From positions 4,306,445 through 4,370,444 of the forward strand of contig OU696581.1 of the NCBI GenBank assembly GCA_916048095.2: DNA of 64,000 nucleotides, written 5' to 3'. The stretch's first letter is position 1; every line of letters starts with the position of its first letter. Shown here piece by piece: positions 8,817 to 50,312 of the stretch. This stretch comes from Sacculina carcini (taxonomy: Eukaryota > Arthropoda > Thecostraca > Sacculinidae). The notes beneath the pieces are model-generated. The model had not been told where the DNA came from. It ran no database searches and worked only from the letters and a program-made list of their open reading frames with translations. Made by a program: the position numbers and the translations under genes.

Positions 8817-9315
8817 TAGGGCTGTCAAAAGTTAATAAAGTTACTTTTTCACCTAAAGGTCACTTTTTCATAAGCTACTTAAAACTGCATGAAAAGGTTA
8901 TGTACGATTATTAGTAAAAAAGTTATTAGGTTACCAAAAGTTACTTTTTCATCGTTAGGTTACTTTTTTTGCTTTTAGGTTACTTTTTGTATCGTCAGGT
9001 TAACTTTTGTTATTTTTCTTTTTATTAGGTAAGTTTTCCACGAAGTTTGGTGACTTTTTGTAGATAAGAGGCACAAAAACGGTATATATGAGGATAAAAT
9101 AGGAAATGAAATGGAATATTAGGTTTGAAGATCAAGAAATGTCCAAATTTCTGCTGTTAGGATTTAGCAATTGATCTTCACCTGAAAATCTGTTACTCGA
9201 TATTTATACGTTTTTGGTTACACAGGATAGCGTCATTCCCTTTTAGGAAATGTCCACGAACCGGAGGGTGTCGTGAGATGTTTGGAGCGTGGTATAGTAC
9301 GATGTTTGAGCTCTC

Positions 9316-9643
9316 TGTGATGTAAAATTATTATGTGCGTTATTTGTTGTATGAATGTCATTTCTTGTATACTGTTTAGTTTGCGTAATTGTCTGATGTA
9401 GTGTAACAGGTGACCTTGAAGTTGGTGTTCAAGGTTATGCGTCATGGAGTGTTAACGCGATTTGATTGGCTGTATGACTTGTGACGTAATGAATATTGAT
9501 TTTTGTGTTTAATCGATGAAGTATGTTTGGGAGAAATATGGCAGTGTCGTGAGGAGAGTGACTGTGAATGGAAGTGTGCTGTTAGGATAATTTGTGTACT
9601 AAGTTTCATTGTTCTTATGATATTTTAATACAGTTTTATCACA
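9316..9643 (+). repeat. gypsy-1 5' LTR
   Basis: Starts TGTGATG and ends ATCACA; 328 bp, same length as the 3' copy. Preceded by CTCTC. Confidence 0.9.
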
Positions 9644-9655
9644 AGCTATTTCGGC
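9644..9655 (+). promoter_or_regulatory. gypsy-1 primer-binding site matching the 5' end of tRNA-Phe
   Basis: AGCTATTTCGGC directly follows the LTR end. It is the exact reverse complement of GCCGAAATAGCT, nucleotides 1-12 of the conserved animal tRNA-Phe. The usual PBS starts TGG and pairs with the tRNA 3' CCA end; that is absent here. The match stops at tRNA position 12, exactly at the LTR boundary. Confidence 0.6.
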
Positions 9656-9658
9656 AAA

Positions 9659-10366
9659 ATGGATACCATGAAAATAACGGATATTGTTGGAAGATATGAC
9701 GGCTCTGGAGATTTTCAGATATGGTTGGATAAATTCAAATTAGCCGCCAAATTGAAAGAAGTTGATGAATTGGCCACGTTGCTGCCACTCTTTTTGGAAG
9801 GACGAGCATTTAAAGTTTACCAGCAGATACCGGAAGAAGGTAGGAAATAATTTCCGATAATTGTGGACTCGTTGCGGAAAACATTCGGAGTAACGCCAGC
9901 TGCTGCATATTCTACATTCATTAACCGCAAACTTAGAGATGACGAAACGTTGGAGGATTTTCTGGCCGACCTAAAGTGTATGGCGACATGTGTAGCAACT
10001 GGACAGAATGATGCGTGGATTGCTTGCCAGTTTATGAATGGACTACCCCATGATATACAAGACACAGTGCGGGCAATGCATGGGGCGGAGTTGAGTTTAG
10101 AAAATATTCTCAATTGCGCTAAACAAGTCCAGGCTGGGCTTCAATCGAAACCGAATAGTGTGGGTTATGCCGCAAGTGTGAAATGTTATCGCTGTGGATC
10201 CTTTGGTCATATTTCTCGTCACTGCAGAAAACAACCAAACGTTCAATCAGATCGACTATGTTTTCTGTGTAATAAGCCTGGACATATCGCTGGTTTCTGC
10301 CAGGGAAACGCACAGCGGGGAGAGGTTACATCTGCAGCGCCGTCCGCCTCTCCCCGCGAGCAGTAA
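9659..10366 (+). pseudogene. gypsy-1 gag, nucleocapsid with two zinc knuckles, one internal stop
   Basis: ATG at 9659 with a single in-frame TAA at 9848-9850; otherwise open to 10366 (236 codons). The N-terminal half, with stretches such as FQIWLDKFKLAAKL and EDFLADLKCMA, is like the capsid region of Ty3/gypsy gag. Two CCHC knuckles close the protein: CYRCGSFGHISRHC and CFLCNKPGHIAGFC. Role: packaging of element RNA into particles. Pol follows in a different frame right after the gag stop, so a frameshift would be needed to express it. Confidence 0.85.
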
Positions 10367-10371
10367 TCAAT

Positions 10372-13242
10372 GTGTGGATGGACGGCAGGCATGGACGCGC
10401 ACTAATCGATACAGGTAGTAGTCATTCAATAGTGAACCGAGCAATGATACGAAGATGCAGAAAAAACGTGGAGAAAAATAATCTTCCACTACAAATAATG
10501 GATGGAACTACCTATATGCTTGAAGAATGTGTTCATTGGGATTCAGTTTGTGTAGATGATGGTCGGTGTGTTGCTACTGCTTGTACTTGGGTGTGCAACA
10601 ACAATCACTTGCCCAGTGGAGTTGATGTCATTCTCGGAATGGACACAATAGTCGCTCTTGGTGGCGTTATGATCATGCCAAATGGTGAAATAAAATTTCT
10701 GGGTATGTCACATGCTGGAAGTATGGTGAAAAATGTGGGTAGAATTTCAATTAAAGAAAATGATTTTGACGCTTCATTTGAAAATGGTCGTTGGACGGTG
10801 AGTTGGAAGTGGAAAGAGAAACTACCGCAAAATACTGGATTCAGGCAGAATTATCAGGTGAGGGAAAGTGACAAGGAAGAATTCGAAGACGAAGTCAAAC
10901 GTTGGATTGCCGACGGTATATTGCAAGAATATGACAGACAGAAGCACGGTGAAATTAGAGGTATGATCCCGCTGATGGCAGTACGCCAAGTGAAGAAAAA
11001 TATAGTGCGACCAGTTATGGACTATAGACCGCTGAATGACCACATACTGAGTTCTCCTGGATTAGACAGCGCCGTGTGCGATGAAAAACTGCGAGAATGG
11101 AGGCGTCTGGGAACGTCTATCAAGCTCCTGGACCTTCGCAACGCGTATTTGCAAATATACGTTGATCCATCGCTATGGTGCTACCAAGTGGTGAAATTCC
11201 AAAGAAAGCAGTATGTGATGACTCGACTCGGGTTTGGCTTAAGCATCGGGCCTAAGGTAATGACGAAAGTACTGGATTACGTGTTGAAAGGATGTGATGC
11301 GAAAGAAGCTGTGGACCATTATATAGATGATATCGTTATTGATACAGATCGAATTGATGTGTCGAATGTTCAAAAACACCTCAAGTCTTTTGGACTAGTA
11401 ACCAAACAGCCTGAAGAACTGGATGGTGCTCGTGTTTTAGGTTTGCGTGTTACCGATGATCATGGTCAATATCAATGGGTCAGAGACGGCAGTCTCCCAC
11501 CAATTCCTGAAAAACTTACGAAGCGTGAACTCTACTCGGTGTGTGGCCAGTGGCTGGGTCACTTCCCAGTTGCTGGGTGGTTGAGGGTTGTTTGTAACTG
11601 GCTGAGACGTGAATCATGCGACGAGAGTACGGTGATGGGGTGGGAAAGTATTGTAAGGCCGGATATACGTCGAGTTGTGGAATTAATATCCAAGAGATTG
11701 CTCACGGATGACCCAGTGACAGGTGTGTGGACAGTTAATGGAAGTAGAGGGATCATTTGGACAGATGCGAGCAATACGGCGTTAGGTGTAGTGGTGACTA
11801 TTGATGGAGTGGTGGTGGAAGATGGTTCGTGGTTGAGAAAGAAGCAAGACTCTGCTCACGTTAACGTAGCAGAATTGGATGCGGCAATTAAAGGCATCAA
11901 CATGGCCTTAAAGTGGAAATTAGAAGAAGTTGAAATTGTGACAGACTCTTCTACGGTAAAAGGTTGGCTGAGTAATATTGTGAACAACACCCATCGGCCA
12001 AGAACGCATGGAATGTCGGAGATGATAGTTCGCCGACGTCTTGATGTCGTCAAAGAATTGATAGACACTTATCACTTGTTTGTGACTGTAAGATTGGTTC
12101 CATCCCAAGCCAATCTGGCAGATAAAATGTCACGGATTCCAAAGGATCTAATTAAAGGATTCGACCGTGGAATGTGCTTTTCCGGTACATCGGAAACGGT
12201 TGCTAGACTACATCATGAAACTGGTCATATGGGAGTGGATAGAACGAGTGAAATGCTAGAAGCTAATGGAAAGTCAGTTCCGAAGTCGGTGATTAATAAG
12301 GTGATAAAAAAATGTGAGCGATGCAGCAGAATTGACCCTGCACCACGAGAAAGGTGGTCAAAAGGGGAAGTATCGTGCGATCAAGTGTGGTTACGTCTTG
12401 CGACAGATATAACGTACGTGCATAGACAACCTTTTCTGACTGTCGTTGACTGTGCGTCACGCTTTAACATCTGGCGAAGATTGGCAGGAGAGACAGCAAA
12501 TTCGGTATATGTTGCATTGGAAAGCATCTTTTCGGAATTCGGACCCCCTCATGTGTTGTTGTTTGATAATAGTCCAACATTTTTGAGTTCCACAATCAGT
12601 CAGCTTTTGTCTAGATGGGCGGTGAAACCTCTACAATGTTGTGCATACCGCCATCAAGGCAATGGCATTGTAGAGCGCGCACATAGAACAATAAAGCGCA
12701 TGGTGGAACGATCGGAAAAATGTGTTGCTGAGATGGTTTTTTGGTATAACGCAACCACCAACAGTGTAACTGGTGAAGCTCCCTTCGTGAGTGTTTTTGG
12801 AGCTGTGCCGAAGATGCCTACCATAACAACCAGTAGACGAGTGAAGGCCTCCGGTATTCAACAAGAGTGGACTGGTGAAGAAGACGACACTAACCTGAAC
12901 CCGCTACAAGTCGGAGATTCTGTGTTCTTGAAACCTAGACAACCATCATGTACATCTCACTGGACTGGACCCTTTCAGGTGTCTCGTGTTCCTAACAACT
13001 GGTCTGCTGATATTGGTGATGGAGTAAACAGGCATGTCAGTCATGTGCGACGTGTGTGCGAGGATGACAGTGATCAGGACAACGGAGATGATTCAGATGA
13101 CAATGATCGTGATAGCAGCACGCGTGTTGACGGTGGTGATAACGGAACAACCGATTCTGATCATGCTAATGATTCTGATCCATGGCAGAATAGATTGCGT
13201 GATAGATCCAGATTACAAGTTCCAATGCGCTATAGAGACTAG
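10372..13242 (+). CDS. gypsy-1 pol: protease, reverse transcriptase, RNase H, integrase
   Basis: An open 956-codon frame. Protease: ALIDTGSSHSIV near residue 12. RT: MDYRPLNDHI, then the catalytic HYIDDIVIDTD near 315. RNase H: IIWTDASNTALGVV near 460, AELDAAIKGINMAL and VTDSSTVKGWL. Integrase: HHCC finger (HHETGHMG ... CERC, about 610-645), then the D,D,E core (DITYV about 680, LFDNSPTF about 732, GIVERAHR about 765). The acidic tail (DNGDDSDDNDRDS) is unusual. The RNase H has the compact 'archaeal-like' look seen in some invertebrate elements; that is an impression. There is no ATG at the exact start; gag-pol frameshifting is the likely mode. Pol is intact although gag is not. Confidence 0.9.
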   Translation: MWMDGRHGRALIDTGSSHSIVNRAMIRRCRKNVEKNNLPLQIMDGTTYMLEECVHWDSVCVDDGRCVATACTWVCNNNHLPSGVDVILGMDTIVALGGVMIMPNGEIKFLGMSHAGSMVKNVGRISIKENDFDASFENGRWTVSWKWKEKLPQNTGFRQNYQVRESDKEEFEDEVKRWIADGILQEYDRQKHGEIRGMIPLMAVRQVKKNIVRPVMDYRPLNDHILSSPGLDSAVCDEKLREWRRLGTSIKLLDLRNAYLQIYVDPSLWCYQVVKFQRKQYVMTRLGFGLSIGPKVMTKVLDYVLKGCDAKEAVDHYIDDIVIDTDRIDVSNVQKHLKSFGLVTKQPEELDGARVLGLRVTDDHGQYQWVRDGSLPPIPEKLTKRELYSVCGQWLGHFPVAGWLRVVCNWLRRESCDESTVMGWESIVRPDIRRVVELISKRLLTDDPVTGVWTVNGSRGIIWTDASNTALGVVVTIDGVVVEDGSWLRKKQDSAHVNVAELDAAIKGINMALKWKLEEVEIVTDSSTVKGWLSNIVNNTHRPRTHGMSEMIVRRRLDVVKELIDTYHLFVTVRLVPSQANLADKMSRIPKDLIKGFDRGMCFSGTSETVARLHHETGHMGVDRTSEMLEANGKSVPKSVINKVIKKCERCSRIDPAPRERWSKGEVSCDQVWLRLATDITYVHRQPFLTVVDCASRFNIWRRLAGETANSVYVALESIFSEFGPPHVLLFDNSPTFLSSTISQLLSRWAVKPLQCCAYRHQGNGIVERAHRTIKRMVERSEKCVAEMVFWYNATTNSVTGEAPFVSVFGAVPKMPTITTSRRVKASGIQQEWTGEEDDTNLNPLQVGDSVFLKPRQPSCTSHWTGPFQVSRVPNNWSADIGDGVNRHVSHVRRVCEDDSDQDNGDDSDDNDRDSSTRVDGGDNGTTDSDHANDSDPWQNRLRDRSRLQVPMRYRD

Positions 13243-13267: not shown

Positions 13268-13595
13268 TGTGATGTAAAATTATTATGTGCGTTATTTGTT
13301 GTATGAATGTCATTTCTTGTATACTGGTTAGTTTGCGTGATTGTCTGATGTAGTGTAACAGGTGACCTTGAAGTTGGTGTTCAAGGTTATGCGTCATGGA
13401 GTGTTAACGCGATTTGATTGGCTGTATGACTTGTGACGTAATGAATATTGATTTTTGTGTTTAATCGATGAAGTATGTTTGGGAGAAATATGGCAGTGTC
13501 GTGAGGAGAGTGACTTTGAATGGAAGTGTGCTGTTAGGATAATTTGTGTACTAAGTTTCATTGTTCTTATGTTATTTTAATACAGTTTTATCACA
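13268..13595 (+). repeat. gypsy-1 3' LTR
   Basis: 328 bp, about four mismatches to the 5' LTR, followed by the CTCTC duplication. Confidence 0.9.
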
Positions 13596-14190
13596 CTCTC
13601 TATACCAGACCCTGCACTGTAGCACTTGACAGTACGCATTTACTTGAACAGGAATTAGCACGTGATTTTCAGGGCGCGAGATAGCGCCATTTTCCCACGT
13701 TTGACATTTTTAAGACTGTGAGCAAAGGGTGCTACATATGGGACGACGGGGTCATTCACACATTCAGTGTTTACGCTCACACTAATATACAAGCTGTAGT
13801 ACGTGGTATTTGATAAAAAGTTTCATTGAAACAATATAAAGAACATTATTGCGACCATTACTAAAATTATTTACATTTGCAATTAATGTATTTCACCTTT
13901 GTATTAGCTTTCCACTATATATGAATGCATGGATGGTTATGCTCATTTTTGCGATGTTAGCCAAATAATATTACGCCACTTTTGGTGGTTTGTTGTAAAA
14001 ATGGTACCAGGTCGAAGAGAGGCTGGAAAAATAGTACCAACTCGGAAAGAGGATTGAAAAGAAGGACTGGTGTATTTTCTTCCTTCAGAACTGCAAACAT
14101 AAATTGACCTTTTTGAAGGAGGTTATTTTTACGAAAGTTAGGTTATTTTAAGGTTACTTTTTATAGGTTATTAGTTTACTTTATATGTTC

Positions 14191-18545: not shown

Positions 18546-19167
18546 AAATTCCCCAAGAGTGAAAGAAGCATTGATGAAATTAGCTAAGAAAGGAAGGAAC
18601 AATTCAATGGAGTGAGGAATCCTGGAAAGATCAATGGGGTCGAGAGATGAAGAATGGATTTTAACATGCTTTACAATAGTTCTACAGTCAGAAAGGGTAA
18701 CTAAAGTAAAAGAGTGAAAAACAGAGGAGGGTAAAGGCAGAGAGTATAATGGTAGAGCAGCAGGGAACAAGCAGCGAATCTTATCGATTTTAGACTGGAA
18801 GAAATTCATAAATAAAGAAGGTAACTGATTAGAGGCAGAATCTGGGAAAACAAGACTACGGAAATTACCTAAAAGGCTGTCAAAAAGCTTCCAAAGTTTC
18901 TTAGAATTGAGACAGGAAGAAATTTTAGAATTATAGTAAGATTTTTTGGCGGAATCACAAAGAAGATGATGATGACGGCGGGCAGAACAGAAAGATTGCC
19001 ACGAAGAGTCAGTCCTGAGACGACGTCATTGGCGTCAAGACGACGCAGGGAGGTTTTTGGATTTTTAATATCAGAGTTAAACCAAGGACAGCGAGTATTA
19101 GTGGAATGGAAGACTTTAACTGGAATAAACGTTGATTTGAGAGAATCGAGGGATGGGTTAAAGTATC
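18546..19167 (-). pseudogene. LINE-B ORF2 part 2: linker between endonuclease and RT
   Basis: Minus-strand frame around 18809-18546 with KIDKIRCLFP and LANFINASFTLGEF. This directly precedes the RT motif 'LLVSKTASILPILKK' on the other side of LINE-C; the two halves join at GAAGA. Upstream (19167-18820) is the RT-preceding coding region in broken frames. Confidence 0.65.
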
Positions 19168-19446
19168 TGTAAAAGCAGACATAATGAACAAAAACAAGAT
19201 GTATTAAAAGACGGGCGCGCGGGGGCATTGCAGCCCCACGCGCGCCCACAAGACACCGCACACCGACACACACTCCACGACGCTCACGCAACAACTCCCG
19301 AAACATGACGCCACCACGTGGCACGCGCAGTCAGCAAACCGGACAATCCACCATTCAAACGCACGCTCATATACACATACATCACCTTCACTCACGCTCA
19401 TACAAAATAATCCTTCATACACAATATCCAGCAATAATCTATTACA
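19168..19446 (-). repeat. TRIM 3' LTR
   Basis: 279 bp; ends TG/CA; one mismatch to its partner (AATAATC versus ACTAATC near the end). Confidence 0.88.
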
Positions 19447-20109
19447 TCTCCCCATGTTTCTCAAGAAACAAAACTGAAAGTTGAACTGAAAATACAAGCC
19501 GAAAAATAAACGCGGAATAAAATTAAACAAGGAATGAACAGGACAAAGACTTCCGACTCCACGACCTCCAGCAGGCGCGCACCATGACTGCGGCGAAGCA
19601 CAACACGGCTGGCCCCAGCGTCGACCGCGCTCCCGCTTCCGCCCGTGCTCTTCAGTGCTCCGCCGCAGCCTGCCGTCTTCTACATCACCGGCTGCCGCGA
19701 CAGGGCACAACACCTCGACCCCAGTGCTCTTCAGCACCCTGCCGCAGCTAGCCGAGACCGCCGTTCACACATACCACGCCGTCTCGCCTTCCTTTCTTCC
19801 AGATCCCCGGCTTCAGCAGCTCTCGCTCCACCAGCCCTCCAGCACCAGCAGCTTCCACCGCCAGCTCAGCGACGTGTCCAGCTCCAATACGGACGGAGTG
19901 AGCATGATCCGCCACAGCTTCCCCGCTGCCTCCAGCCGGCACCATGCCTCACCGCCGTCCGTACAACACGCTTCTGACACGCCACTGAGAACCTCCACTG
20001 CTGCTGTCCTCCCCTGGTGCTGAAGGCATCACCACTGCTGCTGAAGCCGGAACCAAATTTTCAACGATTTCAAATTTCACCAAAACTTCATTCAAACCGA
20101 AATAAAATA

Positions 20110-20140
20110 GCCGAAATAGCTTGTTACAGGCCGGTTAGCT
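20110..20140 (-). promoter_or_regulatory. TRIM double primer-binding site matching 5' ends of tRNA-Ile and tRNA-Phe
   Basis: On the plus strand the LTR at 20141 is preceded by GGCCGGTTAGCT (20129-20140), identical to nucleotides 1-12 of tRNA-Ile(AAU). Before it come TGTTACA (20122-20128) and then GCCGAAATAGCT (20110-20121), nucleotides 1-12 of tRNA-Phe. On the element strand this is LTR end, complement of tRNA-Ile 5' end, an LTR-end-like TGTAACA, complement of tRNA-Phe 5' end. Confidence 0.6.
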
Positions 20141-20419
20141 TGTAAAAGCAGACATAATGAACAAAAACAAGATGTATTAAAAGACGGGCGCGCGGGGGCA
20201 TTGCAGCCCCACGCGCGCCCACAAGACACCGCACACCGACACACACTCCACGACGCTCACGCAACAACTCCCGAAACATGACGCCACCACGTGGCACGCG
20301 CAGTCAGCAAACCGGACAATCCACCATTCAAACGCACGCTCATATACACATACATCACCTTCACTCACGCTCATACAAAATAATCCTTCATACACAATAT
20401 CCAGCACTAATCTATTACA
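20141..20419 (-). repeat. TRIM 5' LTR
   Basis: 279 bp; followed on the plus strand by the GTATC duplication. Confidence 0.88.
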
Positions 20420-21514
20420 GTATCCTAAGAAAAAATTAGGTGGTATATGAACGAAACATTCAGTAGCAAAAGACAAGTGCATATTGACATATAGAGAGTT
20501 CAAATCAGCGTTACGATAATCCGAGAAACTAATAAGTTTGGGAGATTTGTAAGTGATAGAGAGGCGGGCAGAAAATTCAACTAGTGAGTGATCAGAAATG
20601 AAGGAATCAATAGGAAAAACAGTGATATCTCTAATAAGAATAATAGAATCGGAGAAAGAAAGAAGGAGATCAAGTGTGTGACCGTAAACATGAGTAGGGC
20701 AGCATATATGATTACAAAGACCTAATGAATCGATAAATTGTAAAAACATAGAAGAACCAGACTTGAGATGGGGCGCGTCAACCCAAAGGTTGAAGTCACC
20801 ACAAATAACTCTTCTAGAAGAGAAAATTGGAAGAAGTGTGTCTATAAGAGAAGAAAACTCATCAAGAATAATTGAGGAAGAGAAAGAATTAAGACGATAA
20901 ATGTTGACAATACATACAGGCAGAGTAGTTTTACCTATTACTTTACAACATATGTATTCAAATGACTTAATAGGAATTCATACACTACATAGATAGGCAT
21001 TAATGATGTTAGAATTATAGACAAAAGAAACACCACCTCCAGAGCATTTAGTAGGATTAGAGACATTCATAGGGCGACAAATATGAAAAGCTGAGTAGCC
21101 AGCAGGAAAAGAGCTGTCAAAGGAAGATATTTCAGCAGAAGAGAGCCATAATTCAATAACCAGAAAAATATCATACTTAGGAAGGATGTACGCAAAAAGT
21201 GATATTTTAGACCTGATAGACCTGAAATTCAAGAAAGCACATTTTAATAAACCAATTGCATTATTTGATTTAGACCGAGAAATAATAGAAAATGAATCAG
21301 AGAGAGAAGAAAGACACCTATCAGCGGATGAAGTGCTGATTGAAGGAAGCAGAACTGAAGATCCATCATCTTTTTCCGAAGTCGACTGCACAGATGCACA
21401 GCACTGCTGAGCACAATCAGTCAGACCGGAGGTCACATGACGAGATTGAGAATGAGAAATAGGCTCTTTGACGCTGGAGGTGGACGAGGCTGGATCTGGC
21501 TGGTCAAAATTCAC
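20420..21514 (-). pseudogene. LINE-B ORF2 part 1: APE-type endonuclease
   Basis: Frame 21514-20978 carries CAFLNFRSIRSKISLFAYIL (endonuclease start; asparagine motif) and LVIELWLSS. The frame then shifts, and 20749-20420 carries the distal part: FLQFIDSLGL, HTLDLLLSFSD and SDHSLVEFSARL (the catalytic SDH). An open frame continues past 20420 only because it enters the TRIM LTR. Confidence 0.75.
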
Positions 21515-24348: not shown

Positions 24349-25223
24349 TGTAACAATGTATATATTTCATGCGGTGTTGCATATAACTTGTATTCTTATA
24401 TCTTTATTTAGTAATCGTTGATTGTTTTGTGCATTGTGTATTGTATGTTGTGCATTGAAAGTGACATAGGATAGAGGTTAGGACAGGAAGTGAAGCGTAA
24501 ACACATGCATCACTGTCAACACAGTAGGTTAGAATACAGAACACAGCATTGGTTGCACACACGTAGACACACACACATACACTGTAAGACATTAAGAGAA
24601 AACCAGAGAAGCACGGGCACACGCATATATCACTCACACCAGTGTGTAAACCTATGTGCGTGTTGCATTGTGGTGACCTTGCGGTCCGTAAATAATGAGG
24701 TCGTGCACAAATAGGAGATAGAGAATGAAGTAGGCGGCGCTAGCTAGCACTATATAAGCACAGTGTTTTTACCATTCAGGGATATAGAGATAGAAGAGAA
24801 GCGGCAGTCGGGATATAGAGATAGAAGAGCAGCGGCAGTATGGAGATAGGAATAGAAGAGCAGCGGCAGTAGGGATATGGAATAGATAGATAGAAGCGGC
24901 AGCGGGAGGAGATAGATTGAGTAGAAGCAGCAGTAGAGGAGATTCAGTAGAGAAGTGGAGAGGTTCAGAGGGAGAATGGAACGGAACAGAGTATAGCAAC
25001 ACCAGAGGATAGAACGGGAGACCAGATAGGATAGAAAACTGGATATAACGTTAGGACACAAATATTTAGGAACAGCAACATTAGTTATAATATCACGACG
25101 AAATACATTGTTTCAACAAAACAACTGTTTGGAATCGGACATCAAGCGTTATCGCGGCGCACAACGTTAAGAGGCCTGCTCCATTAGAACTATCATCCCA
25201 CTTCTGACACCAAAAATGTTACA
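24349..25223 (+). repeat. BEL-like 5' LTR
   Basis: 875 bp. Contains a purine-rich repeat zone (gaagagcagcggcagt units, about 24785-24870) transcribed from a CACTATATAAGC TATA-type promoter at about 24748. The last 30 bases differ from the other LTR and hold an 18-nt tRNA-Leu 3' end. Confidence 0.8.
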
Positions 25224-26963
25224 TTTGGTGCAACGTGATCCGTATCCAAGGAGGTAGATAATTTTGAAAAGAAAACATACATCTTCAACAGCGTGAATAC
25301 ATCTTCAACAGCGCCCGAAATGTATTACATCTGCTTCTGTGACTTCTGGACCTGTTACATCTGGTGCTCAAGAAAGACATCAGCAACGCATTCATCATCA
25401 TTGGTGCTTCAGTATTATTTGTAAGGTACGTGGTTAATCACTGCTTTCCTATAAAATTTTGCATTTCCTTTTTCCTTAAATCAGAAATCAGAGCCATATT
25501 TAGAGTAAAACTAAATGTCTATGATTAAAATGAGCGATACAGTAATGTCAGACGATCTGCACGTCCACGCCATGAATATAAACAACATAATAGTCGCATA
25601 TATCAACAAGCAGTCGATCATTAGGCAAAGTGTAGCCCAAAAAGACGACGATAATCAATAAGACAAGGAAGATTTGGATAGTACGTCATCATCAGAACGA
25701 CTAACACGACCTCAAACATAGCATGTAGGAGTAAATATAGTTGAAGCTAATAAGCAGCGAAATGTACGTCGAGTAAACGAATCGAAGTAATCACAATTGC
25801 ATTAATGACGAGCCAAAGCAAACAAAACAGAAAATATAGTGAAGTTTTGACCGGAAACGTAAAACAAGCCTTAGCGGGGAAGACTACCAGCATAACAAAC
25901 CGACTGACTGATAGACTGACTAATTGACCGGAAGAGGAGGTGAAGGTATATGCCGTAATTCTCATACACTGGTGAGAACAGAAATGAAGGCAGAACGAAG
26001 TAAATGGTTTTCGCATATGGCCGCGAAAATACCGAAGTTAAGTTGGGGCATTTGATATGCAACTTAACGGACAAGAGATATTGAATGATATATCTGGTAA
26101 CAAGGACAGATATAACAAAGCATACAAGGAGAGTATGTATCGACATGCATAGATTGATGCATTGGAACGTGAGGGCACGATACGCCACTAGGTGACTGAT
26201 GACTATATGACTAGATGACTGAAAGTATGAACCGCTACTATGAAGGCCTTGAAACGTCCGTGTATAAGACATTACTAAACTGTAGACAAGACACCACTAG
26301 ATAATTGAATGGCAATGATAGAACGGCGAGAGAATAAAATTACGGTAAAATACAGAAGACGAAATAGAGAGAAGAATTACGAAACAAGATTTATGTGAAA
26401 AATAATACATAGCTCTGCGAATACTGTTCCTATTCCGAACTAATCTTATTAATCCCACGGAATCCTATTCCTTTTCTTGATACCACGCTGATACACGACA
26501 CTGAACAGCAAGGAAAAATCGACGGATTGTCCAGAACTATAAGAACATCAACGATCGACGCAGTAAAGTTGCTCATTACCGTTGGGGGAATGACATTAGA
26601 AGATGTACATGGTGCTCTACAATGTGAACAAGGAACTACCGTCAGCATTCATGCGTGACACCGGCCAAGCCAAACTCCGAAGTGACAAAAGCTGACAACA
26701 GTATCCTGATTACGTATATCTGCGCGATGACATCTGTGAACAACATCAGCCGAAATCATCCACCATGTACGAGGTACCAAGAAGCCAAGTATTCATCGGA
26801 ACGCATGCAAATAAACAACAATCGCGGGGCTCAATTGTACAAATACTCGTCAGCTGAAGATCATCACACGTCTTCAATGAAAGCCCACTTCTGACCACAC
26901 AATAACATGGCCGTGTATAAGCTCTAGTGGCTCGCATTCGCTCGATTGACCTCGCAGTTGTGG
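25224..26963. other. Interior of the BEL-like element, non-coding
   Basis: Contains the primer-site-like segment at 25224-25241 and a weak purine-rich run (GCAGTTGTGG) before 26964. I find no zinc knuckle, protease, RT or integrase motif in any frame. Confidence 0.6.
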
Positions 26964-27837
26964 TGTAACAATGTTTATATTTCATGCGGTGTTGTATATA
27001 ACTTGTATTCTTATATCTTTATTTAGTAATCGTTGATTGTTTTGTGCATTGTGTATTGTATGTTGTGCATTGAAAGTGACATAGGATAGAGGTTAGGACA
27101 GGAAGTGAAGCATAAACACATGCATCACTGTCAACACAGTAGGTTAGAATACAGAACACAGCATTGGTTGCACACACGTAGACACACACACATACACTGT
27201 AAGACATTAAGAGAAAACCAGAGAAGCACGGGCACACGCATATATCACTCACACCAGTGTGTAAGACTATGTGCGTGTTGCATTGTGGTGACCTTGCGTT
27301 TCGTAAATAATGAGGTCGTGCACAAATAGGAGATAGAGAATGAAGTAGGCGGCGCTAGCTAGCACTATATAAGCACAGTGTTTTCACCATTCAGGGATAT
27401 AGAGATAGAAGAGCAGCGGCAGTCGGGATATAGAGATTGAAGAGCAGCGGCAGTATGGAGATAGGAATAGAAGAGCAGCGGCAGTAGGGATATGGAATAG
27501 ATAGATAGAAGCGGCAGCGGGAGGAGATAGATTGAGTAGAAGCAGCAGTAGAGGAGATTCAGTAGAGAAGTGGAGAGGTTCAGAGGGAGAATGGAACGGA
27601 ACAGAGTATAGCAACACCAGAGGATAGAACGGGAGACCAGAAAGGATAGAAAACTGGATATAACGTTAGGACACAAATATTTAGGAACAGCAACATTAGT
27701 TATAATATCACGACGAAATACATTGTTTCAACAAAACAACTGTTTGGAATCGGACATCAAGCGGTATCGCGGCGCACAACGATAAGAGGCCTGCTCCACT
27801 TGAACTATCACGACTGAAGATAAACAACAATGTTACA
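26964..27837 (+). repeat. BEL-like 3' LTR
   Basis: 874 bp, very similar to 24349-25195 over the first 847 bases; the end is CGACTGAAGATAAACAAC then AATGTTACA. Confidence 0.8.
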
Positions 27838-36252: not shown

Positions 36253-36420
36253 TCTATAAAATAAAAACGTTATACTGTGTGTGTGTGCACAAACTAGTTT
36301 TTCACATTTTGATGATTTTATGCCACGGTTTTGAGGAAAACTGCTCAACAGAATTTCCAGTTTTTTATATCCACAGATTGGAAATTTCACAGTACAGTAA
36401 ATTTTACAGACAGTGCAATA
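36253..36420. other. Spacer between Helitron and gypsy-3A, possible second Helitron 5' end
   Basis: Begins TCTATAAAATAAAAACG and a (GT)n run, similar in type to the Helitron start at 29473, immediately after CTAG. No gene is seen. Confidence 0.35.
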
Positions 36421-36681
36421 TGTACTGTCGCGTATCGTGCGACACGAAAGATCGATGGGCGTACCCCACACTGGCTATATTATACGGAACAGACACAACC
36501 ATACAACACGACAACTCCTAATCGAATCCTTCTCTTACCTCCCATACTTACCAAGAAGAGTTGACACACCTATGATCAGCTGAACCAGTAGGCGTATCCC
36601 AATACGTGGCCCAGTAACAAATTGCCGCATGAGCGCCACGCTCGGAACATCAATAACGATATGAATATACAGAACACTACA
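36421..36681 (-). repeat. gypsy-3A 3' LTR
   Basis: 261 bp, same length and near-identical sequence to the gypsy-3B 3' LTR at 45608-45868. Confidence 0.9.
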
Positions 36682-36697
36682 TTACCCCCACACATAA

Positions 36698-39600
36698 TTA
36701 ATACGTAACAAAATCAGCCAAGCGAGCAGGACGTCTTCGACAGCGCCCTCTCGTCGACGGGGGAAGATCGTTAATTTCGACGGCTCGACACGGATTATCA
36801 AGGTTGACGACTTGTGATGGAACATCGGCGCCGACGCGCGTCGGATCGTCGGCCTCGACGGAAGTCGGGTCATCGGTTTCGACGCGAGACGGATCGTCGG
36901 TCTCGACGCGGGTCGCATCGTCGGTCTCGACGCTCAGCGACCGGTCGCCAGAAGATCTGACTCGTACTGGAACGGGGATCTCTGCGGATTCCGGTGTAGC
37001 AGGAAGCTGGTAGTGCCCGCTATCGTCCTGACCAGTTGACAGTGCGGCGCCGTTGACGTTACTCGCATCCGGCAATTTGACTTCTCTCTGATGAGACTCC
37101 GGCTCCGCGGTGGGACACACGCGAACCTCGTTCGAGGACGACGGTTTCAACTTGGCGAGGTGTGCGGGGTTGCGCACCGATCCGTCTTCCAGTTGATACG
37201 CTGATCCTCTTCGTCCGATGATCTTCAAAGGCCGACCGAAACGTCTCGTCGCCTTCGATAGATGCCCAGGGCGTCGTACGCGCACAACGTCACCCGGGGA
37301 GAATGCGGCTTCACTGACGCCATGACGACCGTCGTAATTCCGCTTGTTCCGCTGTTGTTGACGAGCAACTCGTTCTTTCACTTGCCCCGTCGGCGCCGCT
37401 CCCGCAACAGGCAACAAAAGTCGCATGGGTCGGCCGTGCAACAGCATTGAAGGTGCGCTTCCCGTAGAACAGTGCGGTGTGGCCCTGTACTTGGCGAGCG
37501 AACGCTGGATGTGCTCCGTCAAGTCACCGTGCCGCCAATTGTGAAGCCACGCTTTGAAGGTACGGTTAAAGCGCTCTACCGCGGCATTACCACGCGGCCA
37601 ATACGCAGACGACTTCACATGATGAACCCCGCCCTTTTCCAGGTAGCTCTCGAACGCCTCACTCGTAAACTGACGCCCATTGTCCGTCACCAATGATTCT
37701 GGAAGACCCTCTCTGCTCCATATGGTGTCCAGAAACTTGATGATGGTTGACGAGTCGACCGTGCTCATCATTCCTACCTCCACCCATTTGGAATAGTAGT
37801 CCACCAGCGTCACTGCATAACGACAGCTGGTTGGAGCGAAGTTGATGGGTCCAACAATGTCGAGCCCCAGCTTCTCCCACGGCTTGGCCGGATGAGCGAC
37901 TGGCTTCAGCGGTGCGACTCTGGCTTTGCCGCAAAGAACTTTGTCGCTCGACTGACAGTTGTCGCACTTGTCGATCTTCTGGCGCACGTCGTTATCTAGA
38001 CCAGGCCACCATGCGATGCTGCGCAGATAATTCTTTGTTCGCACCACTCCTTCGTGGGAAGAGTGAGCGTGCTCCAGGTAAGTGTCCCTCAATGACGCAG
38101 GCACCACGAGCTGGTATCCCGCACGAAGCAGTAAGCCGTTATCCTCGGACAGTTCGTGTCGAACAGCATGGAATGGTCTGACGAGCAGATCACACTCTGA
38201 ACCACGATTAGGAAACCCGCGCTGCAGACACCGAAATACAGCTTGCAGTTGAGGATCGTCTTTGGTGGCGCAGCGCACATCCTTCTCGGTGACGCACGTC
38301 CGGTCGTTTTCGATGGTAGCGACGACCGTGAATTCATCGTCCGTCGCACTTGTCATGTTCCGCTCGTCGACAGGCATCCTCGACAACGCATCTGCTCCCG
38401 GCAGACGTGAACCTGGCACATACTGAATATCATACGAGTATGGAATTAGTCTGGACTGCCAACGGGCAATCCTAGCACCAGCACGGCCTCCATAGTTAGC
38501 CGAAAGAACCGTGCGTAATGCTGAGTGATCCGTCCGAAGCACAAAATGTCTGCCCCAAAGAAAGATCTTCCATTTCTCTATTGCCTGAACGGCAGCAAGC
38601 CCCTCTCGCTCTGTAACAGAGTACTGTGTCTCTGCTGGCGAAAAGCGCCGGCTCCAGAATGCAATTACGTGTTCGTTACCTGATCTGTCGACTTGTGACA
38701 AGACGGCACCAGCGCCTCGCTCACTGGCGTCAGTAGTGACCAGAGTACGTTTTTCTGGGTCGAACACATGCAGCGGCTTAGCCGCCACCAGCCGGGCCTT
38801 CAGTCGCTCAAACGCGTCCTGGTGTCGCCGTGTCCAAGAAAAGGTGGTATGTTTTTGCAACAGCTCGAAGAGCGGCGTGGTCAACTCGGCGTAGCCTGTG
38901 ATGAACTGCGACATCCATCCACATAGGCCAAGAAAACTGCGCAGTTGCTTACCATCTGTTGGGACGGGCGCATCGCGAACGGCTCGCAGATGATCGTCAC
39001 AGAGCGATATCCCTGAATCAGACACCATGTAGCCACAAAACTTAATGCGCATTTGGCACCGTTCGGACTTTGCAGGGTTCAGAGTGATGTTCGCACTCTT
39101 CAGTCGACGCAGTACCTGCTGCACACGGCGGTCGTGCTCCTGCCGATCAGCTCCACATACTGCGATGTCATCAATATAATGACAGCAGCCGGATATTCCT
39201 TCAAGAAGTCGATCTAGTAATCGCTGAAAGGCAGCGCCAGCTGAAACAAGACCAAAAGGCACACGTTTAAAACGAAACAAACCATCATGTGTTATAAATG
39301 CCGTTATCGACCGCGATGATGGATCTAGCAGCATCTGATAATATGCAGAGCGCAAATCGAGTCGAGTGAAATATTTCCCGCGCAATTGCACCTGAAGTTC
39401 CTGTACAGTGGGCAACGGGTGCACTTCGCTGACGATCTGTTTATTTGGACTGCGCAGGTCAACACATAGTCGCAAATCGCCCGATTTCTTGCGGACGACG
39501 ACGATAGGACTTATCCACTCCGATGACTCACATCGTTCGATCGTGTCCTCCTCTTGCAGTTTCTTTAGCATGCTCGACACATTTTTCCGTACTGCCAGAG

Positions 39601-40936
39601 GCAGACAACGGAGCGCTGCTCTGACCGGCTGAGCTCCAGGCTTCAGACGAATCGTGTGCTGGTAGCCGGTGATGGGTGGCAGAGGTGTCGGCTCCTGATG
39701 ATCGAAAACCTCTGTGGTGTCAGAAGACACGGAATATACCAGGCCTTGTTTGGGGTGAATCGTTAGACCCATGCTAGTGAGTGCGTCTAGGCCCAGCAAA
39801 CCTTCTGATGTCTGCGTGTCGATGACGTAAAAATCTACGTCAGCGGTGTGGTTGTTGACACAGACAGTGGTGGGTAAAACACCAACGACGGACAGCGGCT
39901 GATGACCCACACCGAACAGACGTGTTGATGTCGAGCGAACCGTTGTCCCCTTGAAATGTTGCCTGGCCAGTGGCAAACTTAATACTGACACACTGGCTCC
40001 AGTGTCTACTTGGAGCGTGGCTCGCGCCTTCATGCCGGACTCGGACACTTGGATGGTCGCAGCACATGATATTTTATGAGCTGACGGTGCTACGCAGCTT
40101 AACACAGTTAATCCCTTGGCTGTGCTACCACTGCTCGAGTTCTGAGCGACAGCAGTGGTCTGGCCGCAAATCGCAGGCTTATTCTTGCTACGCACCGTTC
40201 GACACACGTTGGCCCAGTGACCCTTGCGTCCGCATGTGTGGCATGTTGAAGATTGAGCCGGGCAGAACTGGTGTCTCGGAAACTGGTGTGTTTTGCCACA
40301 GTGCGTGCAATTTGTGCACTTACCTTGGTTGTCGGTGGTTTTGCCGTGCGCTCTTTGGCTCATTTTGTACACAGCGTGGTTGGTCGGAGACATTACAGCC
40401 GCTTGCTGCTGCGAGAGCTCATACGACTCAGCGATCGCTAACAGTGATGTGAGCGTCAGCTGGCTGTCCTGCAAGCAACGCTCTCGTAGCTTCGGGTGCC
40501 GTGTATGCTCGACGACCTGGTCGCGTATCATTTCATCGCGCAGCGTCGCAAACCTGCACCTCAAGGACAACTCACGCAGTGCGGCAACGTATTCACCTGT
40601 GCTCTCAGTGTTGTGCTGTTTTCGTTGGCGGAAGATAAATCGTTCAGCGATAACGTTAATGTTTGGTGTGTAAAATTCTGCCAAAAGTTGCTTACATTTA
40701 TCGTAATCCGACTCACCTTCAAGTTTTGGGCTGACAGGCAGGGAATTGTACACCCTCTGGCTCTCTGCGCCGACACAGTGCAGCAGCATTGCACAGCGTC
40801 TGCCATCTGAGTACGATTCTCCACCTACTGCCGTGAGATAGTTCTCGAATGAGATTATCCACATAGACCACGTAACCTGTGGTTTACCTGGCTGACCAAG
40901 AAAAGCCGGTGGAGGCGGTACACCCTCAACGTTCAT
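36698..40936 (-). CDS. gypsy-3A gag-pol polyprotein, single open frame
   Basis: 1412 residues without a break. Gag about 1-290, with a CCHC knuckle CHTCGRKGHWANVC near 235-248. Protease: LQVDTGASVSVLSL near 308. RT: SEWISPIVVVRKKSGDLRL near 475, then YIDDIAVCG near 586. RNase H: TTDASERGAGAVLSQ near 735. Integrase: HHCC finger (HSSHEGVV ... CDNCQ, to about 992), then D,D,E with LGLDIVGPI (about 1022), VTDNGRQFTSE (about 1085) and a GNAAVERFNRTF glutamate. The tail has five acidic ETDDPSRV-type 8-residue repeats. It resembles K02A2.6-like elements of aquatic invertebrates. Gag and pol are fused in one frame, so no frameshift is needed. The coding capacity is intact but the promoter LTR is truncated. 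Confidence 0.93.
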   Translation of the reverse strand: MNVEGVPPPPAFLGQPGKPQVTWSMWIISFENYLTAVGGESYSDGRRCAMLLHCVGAESQRVYNSLPVSPKLEGESDYDKCKQLLAEFYTPNINVIAERFIFRQRKQHNTESTGEYVAALRELSLRCRFATLRDEMIRDQVVEHTRHPKLRERCLQDSQLTLTSLLAIAESYELSQQQAAVMSPTNHAVYKMSQRAHGKTTDNQGKCTNCTHCGKTHQFPRHQFCPAQSSTCHTCGRKGHWANVCRTVRSKNKPAICGQTTAVAQNSSSGSTAKGLTVLSCVAPSAHKISCAATIQVSESGMKARATLQVDTGASVSVLSLPLARQHFKGTTVRSTSTRLFGVGHQPLSVVGVLPTTVCVNNHTADVDFYVIDTQTSEGLLGLDALTSMGLTIHPKQGLVYSVSSDTTEVFDHQEPTPLPPITGYQHTIRLKPGAQPVRAALRCLPLAVRKNVSSMLKKLQEEDTIERCESSEWISPIVVVRKKSGDLRLCVDLRSPNKQIVSEVHPLPTVQELQVQLRGKYFTRLDLRSAYYQMLLDPSSRSITAFITHDGLFRFKRVPFGLVSAGAAFQRLLDRLLEGISGCCHYIDDIAVCGADRQEHDRRVQQVLRRLKSANITLNPAKSERCQMRIKFCGYMVSDSGISLCDDHLRAVRDAPVPTDGKQLRSFLGLCGWMSQFITGYAELTTPLFELLQKHTTFSWTRRHQDAFERLKARLVAAKPLHVFDPEKRTLVTTDASERGAGAVLSQVDRSGNEHVIAFWSRRFSPAETQYSVTEREGLAAVQAIEKWKIFLWGRHFVLRTDHSALRTVLSANYGGRAGARIARWQSRLIPYSYDIQYVPGSRLPGADALSRMPVDERNMTSATDDEFTVVATIENDRTCVTEKDVRCATKDDPQLQAVFRCLQRGFPNRGSECDLLVRPFHAVRHELSEDNGLLLRAGYQLVVPASLRDTYLEHAHSSHEGVVRTKNYLRSIAWWPGLDNDVRQKIDKCDNCQSSDKVLCGKARVAPLKPVAHPAKPWEKLGLDIVGPINFAPTSCRYAVTLVDYYSKWVEVGMMSTVDSSTIIKFLDTIWSREGLPESLVTDNGRQFTSEAFESYLEKGGVHHVKSSAYWPRGNAAVERFNRTFKAWLHNWRHGDLTEHIQRSLAKYRATPHCSTGSAPSMLLHGRPMRLLLPVAGAAPTGQVKERVARQQQRNKRNYDGRHGVSEAAFSPGDVVRVRRPGHLSKATRRFGRPLKIIGRRGSAYQLEDGSVRNPAHLAKLKPSSSNEVRVCPTAEPESHQREVKLPDASNVNGAALSTGQDDSGHYQLPATPESAEIPVPVRVRSSGDRSLSVETDDATRVETDDPSRVETDDPTSVEADDPTRVGADVPSQVVNLDNPCRAVEINDLPPSTRGRCRRRPARLADFVTY

Positions 40937-40982
40937 TCTGATATCGATTATCAGGATTGCGTAGGAACACTCGTCGCCAATA

Positions 40983-41144
40983 TGTACTGTCGCGTATCGT
41001 GCGACACGAAAGATCGATGGGCGTACCCCACAATGGCTATATTATACGGAACAGACACAGCCATACAACACGACAACTCCTAATCGAATCCTTCTCTTAC
41101 CTCCCATACTTACCAAGAAGAGTTGACACACCTATGATCAGCTG
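40983..41144 (-). repeat. gypsy-3A truncated 5' LTR
   Basis: Keeps the last 162 of 261 bp; ends abruptly after ATGATCAGCTG. Confidence 0.88.
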
Positions 41145-46192: not shown

Positions 46193-46371
46193 TGTGGGCA
46201 ATGCCTACATTTTCTTCTGTGATATTTGTTTTACATACACAACACTCATCGTGACGCACTTCATACATTCACACACCGGTTTTAGCAATCTCAATGGCAA
46301 ATACATCAGTTGTGACTTGTACGTATTTCGCAAGGTTCCTACAGTGGTGACCCCGATTCTGGCATTCTAAA

Positions 46372-48552
46372 ATGGATGCAGGTAATAGTATACAGCTTGA
46401 ATTGCCGCAGTTTGATGGATCAGACATAGATACGTGGATTTTAATGTGTGAAAACATAATGTTTGATGCGGGGGTTTCCGAGCAGGCATGCATGTTTCGC
46501 AAAATACTTGCTAAGCTGCCAGCATCGCATTTCCGAATTGTGAAAGATTTATGCATGTCAACCCCTCTGGCCGCCGATTGCTACCAGCAGTTGACCAGCC
46601 GCCTGCGTCAGCGCCTCCAGCTCACACCCGCCGAACGACTGGATCGGCTTAACAATTTGCCTGAGCTTGGATCGCGGAAACCGTCTGACTTGTTTAGCGA
46701 TCTTCATCTGCTCTACCCCCGTGACATTTACCACGAGATCATCAGGGAAACATTTCTGTCTCGTCTACCCAGAACACTGCAATTCATGTGTCGTGAGTGG
46801 CTGAACTCCATCTCACTGGCCGACACAGCACTCAAGGCCGACGCGTTTCACCAGCCGGTCGTCGCGCGTTCACCTCGGCCAGAGGATTGCAGCAGTAAGT
46901 GCTCCGCAGCGGTTATTCAGCTCTCTGGCAAACGAGCGTCTGCAACAGATGCTCTCCAACTGCCATTTGAACACGAAACACCAGTGCGCCGACAGCGCGA
47001 CAGGTTCGTGAATCCCTGGTGCGCTTCACACCGCAAGTTTGGGCCCTCTGCTCGCAGCTGTTGCAGCCCGTGCACGTTTCGATCCGACGTAAAAGCTACG
47101 CGGACCGCTCCGCCAGAACTGGTAGCACACGACAGCTGCAGCGCCGTGTGTAATCTCCTTCATGTTAATGATCGTAGTGGTCGTCGGTATCTTGTAGACA
47201 GCGGCAGCGAGGTTTCCCTGCTACCAGGCACACGCTTGCACAACACACCGCTGTCTTCACCAGTCCTACGAGCAGCGAACGGCTCGAGCGTTCCCGTGTA
47301 CCAAAGTGATTTTCGCCTTGAGGTCGACCTGGGTCTTGGTAGAATTTACCCATTCACATTTCTGGTAGCGGGCGTGCCTTCACTCATTCTCGGAGCCGAC
47401 TTTCTCCGCGAATACGGTCTGGTACTCGACATGCGAAACCGACGTCTGATTGACAGTGTCACGCATCTGTCCACTCCCAGCAGCCGCGCGGAAACGCTGC
47501 CTCATCCCGACGTGGCTCATATCAGCGCGGTAAATCAATCCGACTGCGACGGCATTGGTTTCGAAGACATTCACCGTAGCGACCCGTTTCAGCGCCTCTG
47601 TGCACCTCCCACTGGATTCCCGGCGATAAACTTACCGGGGGTAGAGCACCGCATAGTCACCAAGGGTTCCCTGGTTTACGCGCGCTCCCGACCACTAATG
47701 CCTGGCAAGATGGATGCGGCGCGGCGCGAACTTGACGAACTACTCGCCCGCGGTATTGTTATTCCTTCGTCATCACCTTGGGCCAGTCCAATACACCTTG
47801 TCGAGAAGGACGGAGGCTCGGCGTATCGCATGGTCGGGTGTTACGAGCGGTTAAACGCCATAACAACACCGGATCGTTACCCAATCCCACACCTTCAGAG
47901 CTTCGCTGATCTGCTCGACGGCGCTAGCATATTCAGCAAGCTCGGTCTGGCTCGTGCGTTCGCACAGATTCCAGTTGCTGAAGAGGATCAGCAGAAAACT
48001 GCTAAAATCACGCCATTCGGTTTGTTTCAGTACACCCGGATGCCCTTTGGCTTGTGCAATGCAGCCCAGACATTTCAGCGTCTGATTGATTCGGTGCTGC
48101 GCGAGATGCCTCGCGTATATGCATACATAGATGACATTCTGTTATATTCACCCGACGCCGAGACAGACCAACGAGATCTTCAAGAACTTTTCAGGCGGTT
48201 AGGCAGCGTCGGTCTCGTCGTGAAATCTGAAAAGTGTGTCTTCGGCTGCGAGAAGGTACGTTTCCTCGGCTTGGAGGTATCGCCTCAGGGTATATGCCCT
48301 CTTCCACATAGAGTGGCCGATTTGTGTGCCATGCCACCACCGCGCGCGGCCACTGAGTGTCGCCGATTCATCGGCATGGTGAAATTTTTTTCACAGGTTC
48401 ATCCCTCGTCTCGCATCAGTTTCAACGCCACTACACGCAGCAGTGCATGGTTCACCTCGCTCATTTCTGTGGGGAGATTCTCAGGAAGCCGCATTCCAGA
48501 AGGCGAAAACAATGCTGGCTACAACTTCACGCCTGGTGTATCCTCAACATGA
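46372..48552 (+). pseudogene. CsRn1-like gag-protease-RT
   Basis: Open for 726 codons. Gag has the CsRn1 look: LELPQFDGSDIDTWILMCEN, and a CHCC-type finger with WCASHRKFGPSARSC near residue 220. Protease: YLVDSGSEVSLLPG near 272, then LGADFLREYGL. RT: SPWASPIHLVEKDGG, MPFGLCNAAQTFQRL and YIDDILLYSPD near 585. The RT end (RRFIGMVKFF, about 48380) loses frame, so the last 50 codons are spurious. The continuation is in the next frame. Confidence 0.85.
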
Positions 48553-50312
48553 CTCCCCAACGCAGGTCATCGCTGACGCTTCAGATGTCGCTGTTGGTGC
48601 CGTCATCCAGCAGTTCCAACACAGCCGGTGGGTTCCACTGGCATATCATAAGCGCGCGCTGACCAAAGCGGAGCTGAAATGGAGCACCGGCGACAAGGAA
48701 CTGTTCGCTCTGTTCAGCGTCGTCAAGTGGTTTTGCCACCTGCTAGAAGGCCGGCCTGGCCTTCGCCTGCTGACAGATCATAAGCCGCCTGCTCATGCTT
48801 TTTCCAGTGCAAGTGAGAAGTCAGCGCGTGTACAGCGTCAGCTCACTTTCATTAGCGAATTCATGACTGACATTCAGCATCTGCCCGGGACTAAAAACTC
48901 CGCCGCCGATTATTTGAGCCGTTCTCCTCTTGCGACAGTTGCAGAAGTGACTCAGACGTACGGCGAACAGAGCATCGATCTGAGACGTCTGGCTTCAGCC
49001 CAGGTGGACGCACCGGATATCGCCGTGTTGGCTAAGTGCCCGTAAGGTCGAGCGTCGCCCAATCACTGGAATCGCTTCTGGCCTCCTCGTGTCAACCTCT
49101 ACTGGCGTCGAAAGTCCACTGTTACCTGAACCACTTCAGCGAGAGATCTTTGAGCGATTTCACAATCTGCACCATCCCAGCGCTCGAGCGTCTCGTCGAC
49201 TGATATCGGAACGATTCGTTTTCCAGCGAGTGTCTTCCAAGGTGGCCGAGTGGACCAAGTCATGCATCAAGTGCCAAATGTGCAAGGTGTCCCGTCACCA
49301 GCACACGCCACTGAAGCGCCCGCCATTGCCGAGCAGTAGATTTGAGTCCCTTCACGTTGATATTGTCGGCCATTGACAGAAGTGAACGGTTACCGATACC
49401 TCTTCACAGTCATAAACCGGTTCACTCGCTATCCCGAAGCAGTGCCTATCTCAGACGCCACCGCGCAGTTTTGCGCCAAGGCGCTGTTGGACTGGATCTC
49501 GCGGTTTGGTGTCTGCTTGAATATCACTTCGGATTTAGGCCAGCAATTTGTCTCGGATCTGTGGAAAGACGTTTTGGTCCCTGCTGGGCGTAAAGCTCAT
49601 TACCACCTGCGCATATATGCCTCAACGAAATGGCATCGTTGAGCGGGTTCATAGACAGCTGAAAGCGTCTCTTATGGCGTCTCTACGCGTTGATGCGGCT
49701 TGGCCGTCGGCGCTACCAGTCGTTCTGATGGGCCTCAGGGCGACCCACAAACGCGACCTTGGCACATCACCCGCTGAAGTCGTGTTTGGTGAGCCCATCC
49801 GCCTCCCAGGTCAGTTTTTTGCTGGAACCTCGTCCATACCCGCCACGGAGATGGCTCGCCAACTGACAAGAGCCATGTCGCGTCTCCGACCTGTGCCAAC
49901 TTCATGGCACCGACGGTACGACCGAGACAAGACATTCGTATCTCCGTCGCTGTCATCTGCGACACATGTTTTTGACCGAGTCGACGCGCACAGACCACCG
50001 TTGACACCGCCATATCAAGGGCCGTACGCAGTGGTAAGTCGAGGAGACAAGACGTATGTCTTTGACCGCGGTGGTCGTCGGGACACAGTGGCGGTTGATC
50101 GGCTGAAACCAGCCTTTCTGGAGAACGAAGATTCTGTACAATCACTACCGCCCGAACCAGCAGCACCTCGTCCAGCTCAGCCGAGTCCGCCGACCGAACA
50201 GTCCGTCCGTCCCGCAGTCGCGTCCGTCCCGCGTCTAGTCCGTCCCGCAGTACATCGCCAACGCCGTCGGCTCATGGTCCGCGTGTCTGGTCGCGCCGGA
50301 GCCGACCAGTGA
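48390..50312 (+). pseudogene. CsRn1-like RNase H and integrase, multiple frameshifts
   Basis: RNase H at 48443-49045: VIADASDVAVGAVIQQF, KELFALFSVVKWF, LLTDHKPPAHAF. After a stop and shift, 49089-49376 has the integrase finger (FHNLHHPSARASRRL ... CIKCQMCKVSRH) and SLHVDIVG. 49373-49600 has the core (FTVINRFTRYPEAVPI, NITSDLGQQFVSDL). 49600-50312 has NGIVERVHRQLKASL and FGEPIRLPGQFFAG, with a proline-rich tail. At least three shifts. Confidence 0.85.

Follow-up and report, generated by a model that had tools for sequence, protein, structure and literature searches.

A survey of primer usage in LTR retrotransposons lists, in the sections accessible to us, three primer kinds, i.e., the complete tRNA, the half-tRNA and the self-primer (PMC6317226). 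According to the accessible parts of the same survey and of a second source, half-tRNA priming occurs in Drosophila copia, yeast Ty5, plant Osser, Bryco, Gymco-II and Bianca as well as in fungal Copia and Helenus TRIMs (PMC6317226, PMC10886601). The TRIM studied here lies in a window of 64,000 nucleotides from Sacculina carcini (the window being the whole stretch of DNA that was analyzed). It does not carry the usual complement of a tRNA 3' end but instead the complement of tRNA 5' nucleotides 1-12.

The element shows all features of a TRIM: two LTRs with TG..CA ends that form a direct repeat of 279 nt each with 99.6% identity (19168-19446 and 20141-20419), a 5-bp target site duplication (TSD; GTATC on the plus strand at 19163-19167 and 20420-20424, corresponding to GATAC behind the 3' LTR on the sense strand), a polypurine tract and an internal part of about 690 nt without coding capacity; no match to pol was found in the TRIM loci. 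Its sense strand is the minus strand because the purine tract CATGGGGAGA (19447-19456; ..CAGGGGGAGA or ..GGGGAAGA in relatives) precedes LTR 19168-19446, the short-type 3' LTR, on that strand, and both primer sites are therefore complements of tRNA 5' ends. The plus strand reads GCCGAAATAGCT (20110-20121), TGTTACA (20122-20128) and GGCCGGTTAGCT (20129-20140), with the LTR starting at 20141, exactly the letters given for 20110-20140 in the preliminary description. In sense orientation, the 5' LTR (20141-20419), ending ..TTTTACA at 20141, is followed on the minus strand by the outer primer site AGCTAACCGGCC (20129-20140), the complement of tRNA-Ile(AAU) nt 1-12, the heptamer TGTAACA (20122-20128) and the inner primer site AGCTATTTCGGC (20110-20121), the complement of tRNA-Phe nt 1-12.

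Element gypsy-1, encoded on the plus strand of the same window, has a 5' LTR (9316-9643, ending ..ATCACA) and a 3' LTR (13268-13595, preceded by TTGGGGCGG) that form a direct repeat of 98.8% identity and are flanked by the TSD CTCTC (9311-9315 and 13596-13600). The 5' LTR is abutted by AGCTATTTCGGC at 9644-9655, i.e., by the site for tRNA-Phe nt 1-12, so that the cut-off at tRNA nucleotide 12 is common to gypsy-1 and the TRIM, as had been described; the two elements are also alike in that the site abuts the LTR and in their 5-bp TSDs. An ATG located 3 nt past the primer site opens the gag region (9659-10366, one in-frame stop), while pol (10372-13242) encompasses protease, reverse transcriptase (RT), PF23088/DUF7047, RNase H (RVT_3/RNase_H type) and integrase. 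The presence of protease, RT, RNase H and integrase in this order between LTRs identifies gypsy-1 as a Ty3/Gypsy-type element, and the residues read as catalytic (RT D319 and D320; RNase H D465, E501, D525 and D584; integrase D679, D732 and E768) are invariant across 14 alignment rows.

Further LTR elements are present in the window. Two of Gypsy type (46193-50511 and 36416-41144) have, by eye, ordinary TGG-type (3'-tRNA) sites, TGGTGACCCCGA and TGGCGACGAGTG, near the LTR end. A third (24349-27810) consists of 847-nt LTRs (98.2% identity) and a 1.8-kb internal part and, read on the minus strand, exhibits a purine-rich end; a TGG-type site is lacking, as is a clear 5'-tRNA site.

Shuffled versions of the window contained, with at most one mismatch, a mean of 0.15 matches to the Ile 12-mer and of 0.27 matches to the Phe 12-mer, compared with one and two, all exact, in the window itself. 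Genome-wide searches covered the 264-Mb assembly (43 contigs), with reversed patterns as controls. The 31-nt double motif occurs at 69 places (up to three mismatches; control 0), the LTR end ACA followed by the Phe 12-mer at 1844 and ACA followed by the Ile 12-mer at 368 places (reversed controls 0 in both cases), the 69 double-motif places being partly contained in both of the latter counts. The occurrence of tRNA 12-mers beside LTR ends is not due to chance. The corresponding search for the 5' end of tRNA-Lys yielded 2 matches vs. 3 in the control and that for tRNA-Val 50 vs. 24; only two of these 50 fit tRNA-Val through nucleotide 12, whereas 48 lack the complement of nt 11-12, 46 of them reading ACATTC and resembling one unrelated repeat. 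Among the four tRNAs looked at (Phe, Ile, Lys and Val), primer-site use is selective. The claims that two 5'-tRNA-type primer sites are arranged in tandem and that chance does not account for them thus stand, also against the genomic background.

The extent of the match was assessed with the first 30 loci listed per type (L009-L038 for Phe and L072-L101 for Ile), a non-random sample drawn largely from contig 1 and the beginning of contig 2 that comprises 19 (Phe) and 12 (Ile) groups defined by their LTR (U5) ends. The 15-mer itself had served as search key; beyond the 12 nt, the groups differ in sequence. The letters directly past the 12-mer differ from group to group, and the match therefore stops at tRNA nucleotide 1. 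At the opposite edge, AG directly after the LTR is constant in both site types. This constancy can also be read in another way: the primer might end at nucleotide 10, with AG being the dinucleotide trimmed by integrase, which would look tRNA-like since tRNA-Phe and tRNA-Ile both have CT at positions 11-12. Retroviral and Ty3-like integrases do remove two bases, and GCT at positions 10-12 is common to both tRNAs. However, AG is equally complementary to positions 11-12 of either tRNA, and the letters that precede TG at the other LTR end vary (GA, GG). We regard a primer ending at nucleotide 10 as possible but rather unlikely.

Regarding the identity of the RNAs, GGCCGGTTAGCTCAGTTGG occurs at 10 places in the assembly, and all five that were fetched are tRNA-Ile(AAT) genes according to ARAGORN, which places nucleotide 1 at the first G in four of the five predictions and one base earlier in the fifth, which has the same letters. 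The tRNA-Ile(AAU) encoded by this genome begins with the Ile 12-mer. The label "Phe" goes back to the animal consensus, the 12-mer presumably representing nt 1-12 of animal tRNA-Phe with its usual start. A tRNA-Phe gene was absent from the assembly in a search with a gapped 5' pattern; a 73-nt query, as well as a 25-mer with three mismatches combined with an anticodon-arm pattern, retrieved tRNA-Cys only, and none of the listed occurrences in the assembly of GCCGAAATAGCTC plus 18 letters not ending in T was tRNA-like by eye. Rfam reported a single tRNA in the window. Genes for tRNA-Ile and tRNA-Cys, unlike tRNA-Phe, were found in the assembly. One could therefore propose that the Phe-type primer is another RNA ending in GCCGAAAUAGCU, given that the assembly has no gene in which GCCGAAATAGCTC at the start is combined with a tRNA-like D arm, and none with a Phe anticodon arm. 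Yet the Ile site, which occupies the same position, corresponds to a genuine tRNA 5' end, the Phe 12-mer presumably equals the usual start of animal tRNA-Phe, and a tRNA cluster missing from the 43-contig assembly would explain the gap, all of which makes another RNA improbable.

The TRIM family itself occurs with two LTR lengths: the short LTR ends before the Ile site and the long LTR 19 nt later, before the Phe site. Among the nine double-site copies obtained first (the window copy and L001-L008), the 3' LTR ends with TTTTACA in seven and runs through AGCTAACCGGCC to TGTAACA or TGTGACA in two. A search for AGCTAACCGGCCTGTAACA plus 12 letters, the last not being T, retrieved 66 places. At 54 of these the Phe site or a near form follows (29 exact, 15 AGCCATTTCGGC, 10 other), while unrelated DNA comes next at 12; all 12 were fetched, and 11 belong to the TRIM family while one, L131, does not clearly do so. 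The long-LTR class comprises 14 copies (L003, L008, L072, L079, L086, L126-L130 and L132-L135; of the first five, four come from other lists and two, L072 and L086, belong to the 12 fetched places; L132 was classed as long by reading and L133 was read by hand), 12 of which are testable for TSDs since L128 and L129 are devoid of a 5' LTR end. In 11 of the 12, the final 7 nt of the LTR are TGTAACA, and an exact 5-bp TSD stands before the LTR and directly after this heptamer (L003 TTGTG, L126 GCCGC, L127 TTCAG, L072 AAATG, L079 CGGTA, L086 GTAAT, L130 GCCCT, L132 GTACC, L133 AGAAG, L134 ACTCT and L135 CTTTT); L008 has no matching TSD. For the short copies (window, L001, L002, L004-L007, L087 and L095) the TSD is exact in eight of nine, L005 matching in 4 of 5 bases. 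The LTR end therefore coincides with the edge of a 12-mer in 8/9 short and 11/12 testable long copies.

Where an insertion stops at TGTAACA and is flanked by a fresh TSD, the DNA it came from must have had an LTR with this end, as priming at the inner Phe site would give, and both sites of the double unit thus appear to have primed. The preliminary description had considered the inner site a fossil. In line with such a dead inner site and an Ile site that alone works, seven of the nine first copies are of the short, Ile-primed type, and the inner site differs from the Phe 12-mer in 25 of the 54 copies in which it is recognizable. The 11 long insertions contradict this view. Even L127, a member of a TRIM subfamily (15 of the 66 places) with the inner site AGCCATTTCGGC, is a long-LTR insertion, so that this changed site (AGCC..) is, judging from L127, still usable; we consider a dead inner site highly improbable. 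Slightly less remote, though still very unlikely, is the idea that the 12-mers are captured pieces of tRNA or a packaging signal while priming takes place elsewhere: a tRNA could conceivably anneal without acting as primer, but the LTR ends coincide with the site edge in both types and shift by 19 nt with the other site, and by eye no TGG-type site is found between the primer site and gag in gypsy-1. Tf1-like self-priming, in which the element's own transcript would fold back so that its 5' terminus pairs with the site, was rejected because complementarity to the LTR is too weak and is as implausible as the dead inner site: the TRIM LTR does contain GTCCGGTTTGCT, which matches the Ile primer in 10 of 12 positions 176-179 nt before the site (sense position about 103-114), but an equally good match arises in 113 of 5000 shuffles of this LTR, other TRIM copies reach 9/12 and coding Ile elements about 6-8 of 12, as by chance, for the Phe 12-mer the best match within 400 nt upstream of the site is 6-8 of 12 (30 loci), and the 12-mers equal tRNA starts instead.

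We thus favor, as the probable explanation, priming of minus-strand DNA by the 5' part of host tRNA-Phe or tRNA-Ile via nt 1-12 with the 3'-OH at nucleotide 12, such that the TRIM toggles its LTR length according to the primer. From the sites, their frequency, the LTR ends and the duplications, all seen in the sequence, we infer that the tRNA itself serves as primer RNA, that cleavage takes place at its nucleotide 12 and that the RNase H of the element is the enzyme responsible. The 5' part of the tRNA would anneal through nt 1-12 in place of the tRNA 3' end, DNA synthesis would begin at the last base of the LTR, and the inner edge of the primer site would correspond to tRNA nucleotide 1, where the template ends. 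Priming at the outer Ile site would result in a copy with 279-nt LTRs and priming at the inner Phe site in LTRs that are 19 nt longer and contain the Ile site within their U5, and either product would give rise to 5-bp target duplications on integration. The enzymes for the TRIM are likely to come from coding elements of the PF23088 lineage, which have the same two sites, and the RNase H of the element may cut the tRNA at nucleotide 12 (or 10). The RNases H of retroviruses and Tf1 measure off roughly twelve bases, starting from the 5' end of an RNA.

With regard to the origin of the double unit, the genome contains Phe-only TRIMs that have the LTR core (GGCGCGCGTGGGGC..) in common with the double family and terminate with ..TTACA before the Phe site; by eye, exact TSDs are present in four of six testable Phe-only copies and lacking in two. 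In an alignment with these, the double family exceeds them by about 20 nt, and the Ile site lies within this stretch. As the Phe-only sister TRIMs lack these nucleotides, the comparison indicates that a Phe-primed ancestor acquired the Ile site, which agrees with the primer switch from Phe towards Ile suggested previously. A tRNA-Ile piece may have mis-primed at the Phe site (the 3'-end TAGCT is common to both), and an unusual second strand transfer could then have left both sites. Locus L131 (contig 11, 7512394), where AGCTAACCGGCCTGTAACA follows ..GCTTTACA without a recognizable TRIM LTR, was considered as donor of the Ile unit on account of its GCTTTACAAGCTAACCGGCCTGTAACA-like letters but dropped, also from the long-LTR count, as there is no pol in the 5 kb downstream.

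The sites are not restricted to TRIMs. In the sampled loci, pol related to that of gypsy-1 follows in the same orientation within about 1.5 kb downstream of 15/30 Phe and 20/30 Ile sites, and an open frame with a minimum length of 147 aa begins 0-34 nt past the site in 15 of the 31 loci that represent the groups. TRIMs make up many of the sampled loci without pol: 9 of the 30 Phe loci have a pair of LTRs within 3 kb, and the double-site TRIM accounts for 7 of the 30 Ile loci (L082 and L091 being the same places as L001 and L002). In many coding Ty3/Gypsy-type elements of the PF23088/DUF7047 lineage, the internal region begins with one of the two putative primer sites, and the preliminary description is upheld in related elements as well, TRIM copies being double or Phe-only and coding elements carrying Phe or Ile sites. 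A pol tree was calculated from 26 rows, nine metagenome proteins and 17 sequences from the Sacculina carcini genome, i.e., gypsy-1, L075 and the 15 that remained of 19 fetched stretches after exclusion of L107 and L109 (no pol match) and L119 and L120 (pol in opposite orientation). The Ile elements fall into two groups with Phe elements close to either, and at least two Phe/Ile changes are required. The metagenome sequences, available as proteins, fall between the Ile and Phe groups, and the lineage is therefore old and wide. It is also abundant in metagenome and read-archive assemblies. The DNA evidence stems entirely from one genome: scans of viral contigs with pol confirmed no relative, none of the 75 stretches matched in a genome-contig collection was confirmed, and tblastn against a phage collection gave no match. 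The 33 viral stretches matched by the 15-mer ACAAGCTATTTCGGC were taken as chance since none of them encodes a pol relative. That the whole PF23088/DUF7047 lineage of Ty3/Gypsy-type elements employs a fourth primer kind, a 5' dodecamer of tRNA-Phe or tRNA-Ile cut by its own RNase H, with TRIMs as two-site parasites whose LTR length follows the primer, appears to us an evenly balanced proposition.

When compared with described systems, the proposed mechanism resembles half-tRNA priming in that a 5' piece of a tRNA offers an internal 3'-OH and the site abuts the LTR. Here, the match comprises nt 1-12 and not the complement of an anticodon stem-loop, the proposed cut is at nucleotide 12 (or 10), the site extends to tRNA nucleotide 1, and integrase follows RT and RNase H as in Gypsy-order pol, not as in Ty1/copia. 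In half-tRNA priming, as far as the accessible parts of the sources go, the elements are of Ty1/copia type, and their primer tRNA is cut in the anticodon stem-loop (PMC6317226, PMC10886601). With ordinary Ty3/Gypsy priming by tRNA 3' ends, the elements have in common the host tRNA, the site beside the LTR, the polypurine tract and the 5-bp TSD; the difference is that the site here corresponds to the opposite tRNA end. Self-priming as in Tf1, Tj1 and sushi likewise relies on a very short 5'-terminal RNA piece that primes after cleavage, the self-primer of Tf1 measuring 11 nt. There, however, it is the 5' end of the element's own mRNA (PMC4600332, accessible part), whereas the sites described here match a host tRNA and not the LTR. 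Animal TRIMs and Helenus/Ajax are equally short non-coding LTR elements, but the animal Helenus families use tRNA 3' ends according to the accessible part of the source (PMC10886601), in contrast to the two 5'-tRNA sites of the window TRIM.

None of the accessible parts of PMC6317226, PMC10886601, PMC4600332 and PMC3286476 names a tRNA 5'-end primer, and a title search of literature, one that most subscription journals lie outside of, returned nothing on such priming. A tRNA 5' dodecamer would represent a fourth primer kind besides those established. If true, priming of this type needs an as yet undescribed cut in the D arm and would escape control by 3'-tRNA fragments, and programs that find primer sites with the help of tRNA 3' ends would miss such elements. 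The two-site TRIM would moreover constitute a natural assay in which each insertion records the tRNA that primed it, such that primer choice could be read from the genome.
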